Shown here: positions 26,814 to 29,800 of the stretch, one piece after another | Position numbering within the stretch: position 1 is the stretch's first letter | Layout: each line of letters begins with the position of its first letter | DNA from: Cloeon dipterum | Lineage: Eukaryota > Arthropoda > Insecta > Ephemeroptera > Baetidae | Length of the DNA stretch: 64,000 nucleotides | Reading direction: 5' to 3' | Assembly (NCBI RefSeq): GCF_949628265.1 | Contig: NC_088788.1 | Span: forward strand, 27,762,335-27,826,334 | Made by a program: the position numbers and the translations under genes | The notes under the pieces: model-generated | Told to the model about the DNA's origin: nothing | Database searches by the model: none | What the model saw: the letters and a program-made list of their open reading frames with translations, nothing else

Positions 26814-29800
26814 TCAGTTATACTGACTTCGGCCAGGTCGATGATCTGTTCTTATTAGATGATTAAAAACAGCGTTCTGAGAGAACAGCCTACTCACCAG
26901 AGTAGCCCCCAGAAGAAGACTGAGGCTGTCCAGGAACAGAGTACTGTGGTCTGAAGTTGGCAAAGTTGGCGGCGCCAAACGAAGCAGGCAACTGCCCGGT
27001 GGGGAAACCTGGTGGGAACTGGCCAAGGAGGCCGGCCGCCTGGGCTGCGGCCACTGCCGCTGCAGCCGCGGCTGCGCTTGACTGTGAGCTGCTGCCACCG
27101 CTGCCGCTGGGCACTCCTCCCGGAGAGGCAAGCCTCGACAAGATGGAGCGTTCTGACATCTGCAGCCGTTGGGCGACAGGGGGAATACGGGCCAAGGTGG
27201 CCGGCAAGCGGCTCACGTCTGACTTCATGTCCGACAACAGCTCCTCCAGCTGATTTAAAACCTGAAAGTTGCACGTTCAAGACATGAGCTAATTATCTTG
27301 TGCAAACTATATATGTGACTTCTTTAAGCAATTAATATTTATTTCCTACTTTTCGGCAGGCACTACTAATTCTTACCTTATGGAGTACGGCGTTGGCAGG
27401 TTTATTGCCAGCCAGTGACTCCTTGGAGAGATGCTGGTGGGACTCAGCCAAGCACTCAACCTCAGCAAATCTTGCGTTGAGGCTCATTGCAGGGTGGTTG
27501 GGGTCCTGAGTCAGGTTCAGATAGGCAGCACGCCTTAATTGCTCCTCAATCACCAAAGCCTGTTCCAATAGCTAAAACAAAACATTCCGTGATAAATAAA
27601 TTTGAAGTCGCAAACTATTGCGTGGCTTCTAAAGCAAGAACTTACCTTAAATCTGCGGGCGAGGAACTTGTTCTTGATTTCCAGGAAGTTGCCCTTGCCG
27701 ACGTCCATCTTGAAGGGCTCATTTATGATGGCGAATCTGATGTCGTTCTGGATGTCCTGCCATCTGCCATACCCGTGGGTCACAATGCCAGCGAGAAGCC
27801 AGTAATCGTGCCTTCTGTGCCAAATTTCGTACTCTCGGCCAGGTACTGCAGCTTTCTCTTCATTCTGCCAAAGTGTGTGCAACTCTGTGAAGCCTCCATC
27901 GGCAATGTTGAACATAAAGCGGCGTTTGCTCTTGTCCTCCTCGACTTTGAGATCCTCCTCAGGTTTCTCTTCCTTCTTCTCCTTCTCCTCCTCCTTTGTT
28001 TCCTCATCCTTCTTTTCCTGTGCAAATTTTGGCTCAATTAATAATTGATTCATGGTAAAAATTAACGCTATGTTCTATTATGTCTCAGATAGAGAGTTCA
28101 AGAGTAATGGTATCATTTCAACATTAAATTCAGACTGATAAATCATCATTGTTTTTTCAAGTCAAACGAAACTAACAAAAAACACTTACATCTTTTTTGG
28201 TCTCATCCTTGGATTCTTCTTTAGGCTTGTCACCCTCCTCAGATTTCTTCGCCTCCTCATCTTCCTTTGCGTCCGCCTTTACTTCATCCTCAGCCTTTTT
28301 ATCTTCTTTTATCTCCTCGTCAGGCTTGTCCTTCTTGGGCGATGCGTCCAATTCCATAGGCTCCTCTTTCTTCACCTCAGACTCCTTGGCCGCCGCGTCC
28401 TCCTCTTTGGGGGCAGCCTCCTCTCCTCCCTCAGTCTTTTCCTTTTCCGCCTCCTTCTCAGCCGGCTCTCCTTCCTTGGTGCCAGCTTCCTTGCTCTCCT
28501 CCTCCTTCGGAGGCGCTGGACTGGCTGCTGCACTCGTCGCAGGCGTGGCGCTGTTACTGGTGGCTGTGCTCTGCACCTCAGGATTTTCTGGCTTTGCTGG
28601 CCGCTTCACCATCTCAGGCATGCTGTAATACCCGTTAATGTGCTCAAACTCCTGCACTTTCTTCCTGATTAGCGACATCACGCCGATTCTAGTGAGCACA
28701 TGCTGCCTGCTGAGCCCCTCCCTGGGAACGCCATCAGCGAATGTTTCGGCGTTGTCGGCGCCAGGCTCGCACAAATGGCGCATGAACAAAGACACGTACG
28801 ACTTGAAGTTGCGCTCTGACTTGCCACGTAAATCACGTACCAACCTGTTGAGGGTTTTTCAGTTAAGAAAACGTGAAATAAGCGGGTTTTAAAATTTATC
28901 TTAAGCACAAACATGCGTCAGAAAGAGAGTTCAAGAAAGTTGACTCAGCATAGAGAATTTTAAGATAAGAATGATTTCATCATTAATATTAAGGCATCTA
29001 ATTAATTTAAAATTTGAAAGCTACTATCTAAAGACTCACCACTGTGAATTGAAGGAATCCTGTGGTGGCATTCCATATCGCATGATCGCATTGAGGAAGG
29101 CTTTCCTCTGTCGAGCATTGAAGCCAAGGACCTGAAACATCAATTTACTATTATTACACCTGATTTTAAGTAACAACATAGATTGCGCAGTTTTGTATTA
29201 AAAAACATCAGTGTGACAAGTAAATCACATGGAGCCACACATCTAATGAGCTATGGATCTAGTGTACTGGGAGGCCTTTAATAACAGTTCAATGCTCCAG
29301 AAATATTATTCTATTATCTCCCAGTCTTGCAGAAATTTGCAAGTTAATGTGCCGAGCCTTGACCAGCATTAGAATCAAGACAAAAATGCTTCCAAGTAGT
29401 AAGTCTCGGGTGACAAATTAATGCTCTATCAATTGAGTAAGGAGGTCATCACTTGATCGCAAAGTGACAGTCATCAATAGATATTAACTCACCTCAATGT
29501 TTCCTCCAACACGAGCGAGCAGGGGAGGCAAGGGCCTATCCTTCTCATCCCTGCGCTCCATTCCCCTTCTTCTGCCACTTCTCCTTCCTGCTTCATTTCC
29601 GTCACCCTTCTCATCAAAGTCATCATCCTCTTTGTCATCATCAGATGGAGCAGAAAACTCAGAATTGTAGTCCGATAAATTGTCCTGCCACGTAGTGTCG
29701 TCTCTCCCATCGGCAGCGTCGTTGTAATTGACCTGTTTGCGGACACGTTTGCCTTTTCCTAGGGTGCGCGCCAAGTCCTCCTGCTGTTGCTCATAATGGT

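Follow-up and report, generated by a model that had tools for sequence, protein, structure and literature searches.

The presence of snoRNA paralogues in different introns of a single host gene, arising by intragenic duplication, is a general pattern, and the chicken U18a, U18b and U18c RNAs sit in introns 2, 5 and 6 of RPL4 (PMC2653536). Vertebrate relatives of Mi-2 are also known as hosts: an intron of human CHD4 contains scaRNA11/ACA57 (PMC6466398), and the same RNA is found in intron 33 of chicken CHD4 (PMC2653536). In box C/D snoRNAs the antisense element spans 10-21 nt and the modified nucleotide is the fifth one counted upstream from box D (PMC8162545). One such RNA in the chicken, SNORD81/U81 (GGgCD31), has 28S-A413 as its target and its guide is marked 5' (PMC2653536).

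We analysed a 64,000-nucleotide stretch of DNA (the window) from the mayfly Cloeon dipterum in which introns 8, 9 and 12 of Mi-2 each carry a box C, a box D and the guide in the arrangement CTTGAACTCTCT-N-T-CTGA on the host (minus) strand. As with the chicken U18 RNAs in RPL4, one guide is present in several introns of one gene; the mayfly case differs in its host, a chromatin remodeller, and in the strong divergence of its copies outside their boxes and guide. As with scaRNA11/ACA57 in CHD4, a guide RNA lies in an intron of a Mi-2 gene or relative, but scaRNA11/ACA57 is of the H/ACA class, targets U5 (in chicken also 28S-1612) and is unrelated to the mayfly C/D copies. With a probability of roughly 0.93 we read the three elements as box C/D snoRNAs, probably paralogues of one another, that would direct 2'-O-methylation of 28S rRNA at GAAGAG[A]GAGTTCAAG. 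What the DNA itself establishes are the boxes, the guide, its exact 28S target, the register, the host introns and the spacing to the 3' splice site.

The kind of gene is well known. New are a third copy, Mi-2 as the host, and a target that coincides with a vertebrate site apparently missing from flies. The surprise expressed in the sequence-only reading, to which no description of Mi-2 as a host of repeated copies of one guide was known, is only partly earned: repeated guides are ordinary and CHD4 already hosts scaRNA11/ACA57. Judged from listings, the open-licence literature holds no relevant report of Mi-2 as a snoRNA host, and no report of snoRNAs from C. dipterum was among the matches listed there, although one may exist elsewhere; the main text of a paper on anopheline non-coding RNAs is without Mi-2, SNORD81 or SNORD26 (PMC4300560). 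The copies provide three annotatable candidate snoRNA genes in a mayfly together with one testable rRNA site, and probably extend the range of multi-copy C/D hosts to a chromatin-remodeller gene; they leave the understanding of how snoRNAs work unchanged.

Three guide elements in introns of Mi-2

The 13 minus-strand exons of the window, when joined in the Mi-2 model built in this analysis, encode a protein of 1970 amino acids and define 12 introns (Table 1). PHD, chromo, SNF2, helicase C and CHD C-terminal domains are present across five of the Mi-2 exon frames and the best protein match is C. dipterum Mi-2 isoform X2 (P0001), with 100% identity over 99% of the query; the protein of another mayfly, Neocloeon triangulifer, is 89% identical. 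The gene model, the domains and the protein match all bear out the earlier assignment of the host as Mi-2 and of two of the elements to its introns 8 and 9.

Box C fits RUGAUGA in every copy (ATGATGA in A and B, GTGATGA in C) and box D (CUGA) is exact in all three. The sequence-only reading had described two intronic C/D elements on the host strand with ATGATGA and CTGA; both are present, as copies A and B, and a third, copy C in intron 12, had been missed. Its figure of about 65 nt applies to the whole span that begins with box C and finishes with box D (65 nt in A, 66 in B and 63 in C), and not to the spacing of the two boxes. It also had the guide abutting box D, and this proved incorrect: two nucleotides (AT, TT or GT) separate CTTGAACTCTCT from CTGA, the nearer of which to box D, a T, also fits 28S.

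The end of box D lies 67 nt (A) or 73 nt (B and C; 52 nt in C with the X2 acceptor) from the 3' splice site. In vertebrates, C/D snoRNAs occupy a conserved place ahead of the acceptor, given as some 50 nt from the branch point on its upstream side, and this placement is tied to splicing-coupled assembly (PMC8162545). The mayfly distances, which are counted to the acceptor itself, are in keeping with the placement of C/D snoRNAs. The last Mi-2 intron may use either of two acceptors separated by 21 nt (26172-26193, minus strand), which give different Mi-2 C-termini, KHK (X2, P0001) or a 25-amino-acid tail ending NLILIDD; because isoform X2 ends YSGKHK, its acceptor is the one 21 nt upstream of that in the present model.

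Table 1. Positions in the window of the Mi-2 gene, its guide-bearing introns and the three elements
Feature	Positions	Strand	Details and basis
Mi-2 coding region	26092..35863	minus	13 exons, 1970 aa; gene model, domain and protein searches
Mi-2 intron 8	28845..29039	minus	195 nt; gene model; hosts copy B
Mi-2 intron 9	28018..28189	minus	172 nt; gene model; hosts copy A
Mi-2 intron 12 (last)	26172..26897	minus	726 nt with acceptor ending 26172; isoform X2 acceptor ends 26193; hosts copy C
Copy A (intron 9)	28085..28149	minus	box C ATGATGA 28149-28143; box D CTGA 28088-28085
Copy B (intron 8)	28918..28983	minus	box C ATGATGA 28983-28977; box D CTGA 28921-28918
Copy C (intron 12)	26245..26307	minus	box C GTGATGA 26307-26301; box D CTGA 26248-26245
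Copy A guide and box D, CTTGAACTCTCTATCTGA	28085..28102	minus	exact core CTTGAACTCTCT starts at 28102; genome and window pattern searches
Copy B guide and box D, CTTGAACTCTCTTTCTGA	28918..28935	minus	exact core CTTGAACTCTCT starts at 28935; genome and window pattern searches
Copy C guide and box D, CTTGAACTCTCTGTCTGA	26245..26262	minus	exact core CTTGAACTCTCT starts at 26262; genome and window pattern searches
Copy C with 8-bp terminal stem (TTAGTTGC / GCAACTAA)	26237..26316	minus	12-nt flanks pair, -11.7 kcal/mol

The predicted 28S target and the SNORD81 site

The complement of the guide had been described as part of conserved 28S rRNA, and the mayfly's own 28S does hold the exact target: a genome search with the 29-nt stretch AAAAGAACTTTGAAGAGAGAGTTCAAGAG, allowing up to three mismatches, gave six matches, every one of them exact, and a longer form of the target was exact in nine rDNA loci, some of which overlap. 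Copies A and C form 16 and 13 Watson-Crick base pairs with this 28S, in each case starting 2 nt from box D, and copy B forms 13 together with a G-U pair nearer box D; the duplex energies are -28.0 (A), -24.4 (B) and -24.1 (C) kcal/mol. All three copies have, beside box D, an antisense element of 10-21 nt that matches the target RNA. For each of them the box D plus five rule leads to the same nucleotide, the A in GAAGAG[A]GAGTTC (position 417 of the 28S slice), in agreement with the earlier prediction of an A in the GAGAGAG run. We infer that this A lies near 28S nucleotide 400, counting from an estimated 28S start in a copy whose 5' end reads N.

A scan of snoRNA type against the species' own 28S had been proposed as a check and it found copies A, B and C, with pairing of 13-16 bp. 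The scan of the window tolerated one mismatch in box C, placed CTGA 40-110 nt beyond it and asked for 10 bp or more of complementarity to rRNA no further than 3 nt from CTGA. The three copies were the only loci that it returned, in four rows, copy C taking up two of them with different readings of its box C. Twenty Markov control windows yielded 0-5 hits each, the longest with 12 bp, as against the 13-16 bp of the copies. The rRNA set consisted of 28S pieces, 18S and 5.8S from the rDNA loci of the same genome, and the 28S copies fetched were broken, perhaps with parts missing, so the scan could overlook a guide for a missing part.

In the consensus of SNORD81 (Rfam RF00136) the guide and its register are those of the mayfly copies, so that the predicted mayfly site is the vertebrate SNORD81 site; the sources for the SNORD81 target are this consensus and the chicken table. 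The consensus of SNORD26 (Rfam RF00087), UGAACUCUCUCUUUC, pairs with the same 28S stretch, but its register is two nucleotides off and would fall on the preceding A, to judge from a printed consensus that stops before the rest of the box. A link to both vertebrate RNAs had been proposed from the letters, and it has stood up in a narrower form, the register in the Rfam consensus pointing to SNORD81. The architecture is different: the SNORD81 guide is upstream of box D', whereas that of the mayfly is upstream of box D in all three copies, which also differ from SNORD81 in their host gene, in their number and in falling short of the Rfam cut-off. A search of the window against Rfam gave nothing at or above the gathering score of any family. 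At the RF00136 gathering score of 50 bits there were no window hits, and the region of copy A scored 19.6 bits out of box register; the nearest family was SNORD36, on copy C, with 29.0 bits against a cut-off of 30 and a different guide.

A 2026 preprint on Drosophila S2 cells calls the Nm signals at human 28S 398-400 specific to human; its method recovered 30 of the 42 annotated 28S sites and was weak where sites are closely spaced (PMC13228274), so the absence from Drosophila is uncertain. If the preprint is right, the mayfly would appear to have guides for a 28S site that flies lack. These observations invite a tentative suggestion, which we rate at clearly less than an even chance: mayflies may have kept or re-evolved a SNORD81-site methylation that Drosophila lacks, by means of an unrelated or rearranged snoRNA, with its guide at box D instead of D', that has multiplied in Mi-2 and places a ribosomal mark in step with Mi-2 transcription. 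Were the site methylated, it would be common to vertebrates and the mayfly and reported absent in Drosophila S2 cells, which would indicate that one rRNA mark was lost or gained together with a change in guide architecture. The Drosophila sites Me28S-A771 and A774 were considered as possible homologues and dropped, since by their spacing they belong to another region of 28S, and no paper listed looked relevant; the 771/774/788 spacing matches human 1310/1313/1327, which we take to be that different region.

Kinship, activity and alternative readings

Copies A, B and C are probably paralogues, with the sequences pointing weakly to shared descent. The alignment scores of their interiors were reached by 47 of 1000 shuffles for A and C, 36 of 1000 for B and C and 655 of 1000 for A and B. 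The flanks of the introns are little alike, the best pair, the 5' flanks of A and C, being equalled by 40 of 500 shuffles. The claim that only the boxes and guide are conserved is nearly correct, the exceptions being a D'-like CTGAA and a C'-like TGTTGA that are common to A and C. Old duplications inside Mi-2 are the simplest account of the copies; alternatively, they may have been gained independently. Guides next to the D' elements made an unconvincing match to rRNA, the best being reached by 185 of 200 shuffles in copy A and 105 of 200 in copy C, and in copy B by all 200 for CTGA and by 30 for the first CTTA.

In the mechanism that we envisage, the Mi-2 introns would be spliced out, debranched and trimmed to RNAs of about 65-80 nt, and these would assemble with the C/D core proteins 15.5K, NOP56, NOP58 and fibrillarin. 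The element upstream of box D would then pair with pre-28S and direct 2'-O-methylation of the A that is predicted for vertebrate SNORD81.

It is unlikely, though deserving of some weight, that only some of the copies are active, for example that copy C works and that A, B or both are decaying or weakly processed duplicates; such an arrangement is compatible with the main reading for at least one copy. Copy C alone has a terminal stem, which was reached by none of 300 shuffles with 12-nt flanks, 12 of 300 with 25-nt flanks and 17 of 300 with 40-nt flanks, and no terminal stem that beat shuffles was found for A (205-261 of 300 as good) or B (142-161 of 300). The best sub-threshold Rfam C/D matches are all on copy C (snoU30 and snoZ266, E 0.019) and the D' of copy B is degenerate. 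Yet all three copies have kept boxes C and D and a 12-nt guide core intact despite the diverged interiors, the longest guide match (16 bp) belongs to copy A, and it is copy C, not A, that can hide its guide in a hairpin. In that hairpin (26254-26272, minus strand) the 7 bp between a GAGTTCA just ahead of the guide and a TGAACTC within the guide close a loop of 5 nt, and the guide may be masked as a result. Copy B forms a comparable hairpin that contains a bulge. Folding of the whole elements was no better than that of shuffles (z 1.06 for A, -0.56 for B and -1.03 for C).

Two further readings receive very little weight. The RNAs might be C/D snoRNAs that act in cis, for instance on the splicing of Mi-2 or on the choice between the two candidate acceptors of intron 12, and effects of intronic snoRNAs on the splicing of their hosts have been reported (PMC10324135); we regard this as highly improbable, the feature common to the copies being an rRNA guide in one register, which a cis function would not need. 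Least probable of all is a chance or relic resemblance from which no RNA is made, a reading that the empty Rfam gathering search of the window would suit. It has to contend with three exact strings in one gene of a 190-Mb assembly (C. dipterum, 10 contigs, the window being on contig C3): CTTGAACTCTCTNTCTGA, comprising guide and box D, has three exact matches, all in Mi-2, its reversed control has none, and the chance expectation for 17 fixed bases on both strands of 190 Mb with equal base use is about 0.02. Within the window the 18-nt pattern, with up to two mismatches allowed, has three matches, all exact, as against none in 100 dinucleotide shuffles, and the boxes and guide have been retained amid diverged sequence.

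Weaker matches in the window and genome

With one N before CTGA the pattern has no match in the assembly, because two nucleotides separate the guide from box D. A pattern of 16 fixed bases with up to one mismatch gave 14 matches, three exact ones being the Mi-2 copies and 11 having one mismatch, and its reversed control gave five; in a search with the register moved two nucleotides downstream there was a single match (L030). Within the upstream stretch that was scanned, a box-C-like 7-mer with up to one mismatch is present in five of 12 other near-match places and an exact RTGATGA in none, and these 12 places outside Mi-2 are taken as chance. In two of them (L012 and L019) the box-C-like 7-mer contains TGATGA; at L012:1450-1517 on contig C1, CTGATGA starts 51 nt before TTGAACTCTCACTCTGA, with a mismatched guide, and is probably also a product of chance.

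Across the genome the Rfam SNORD81 and SNORD26 models gave three matches each at E<=10, with 61 and 70 candidates scored, respectively, and none over the cut-off; the best SNORD81 score, 25.4 bits, is outside the Mi-2 copies. Of 14 control prokaryotes, 8 also give sub-cut-off matches to the SNORD81 model and 12 to the SNORD26 model, and matches of this kind are therefore noise. The exact pattern tried for the SNORD26 register had no match in the genome. The best SNORD26-like place (L034:1501-1574; 25.8 bits against a cut-off of 44) has the box-C-like GUGAUGAU and a diverged guide, and was rejected as a SNORD26 homologue since the guide is not kept.

A model based on just the sequences of copies A to C recovers all three in the window, as it must by construction, together with three weak others. 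The best of the latter, at 62959-62996 on the plus strand (10.3 bits, E 0.05), spans model positions 1-38, so the guide is not included.

Some 28S copies in the rDNA of contig C5 are partial with respect to the Rfam model, L023 extending to model position 2354 and L028 to 954, and in L029 3401 model positions are covered by 2256 bases, with a large gap. This suggests that these three rDNA units are interrupted, deleted or misassembled.
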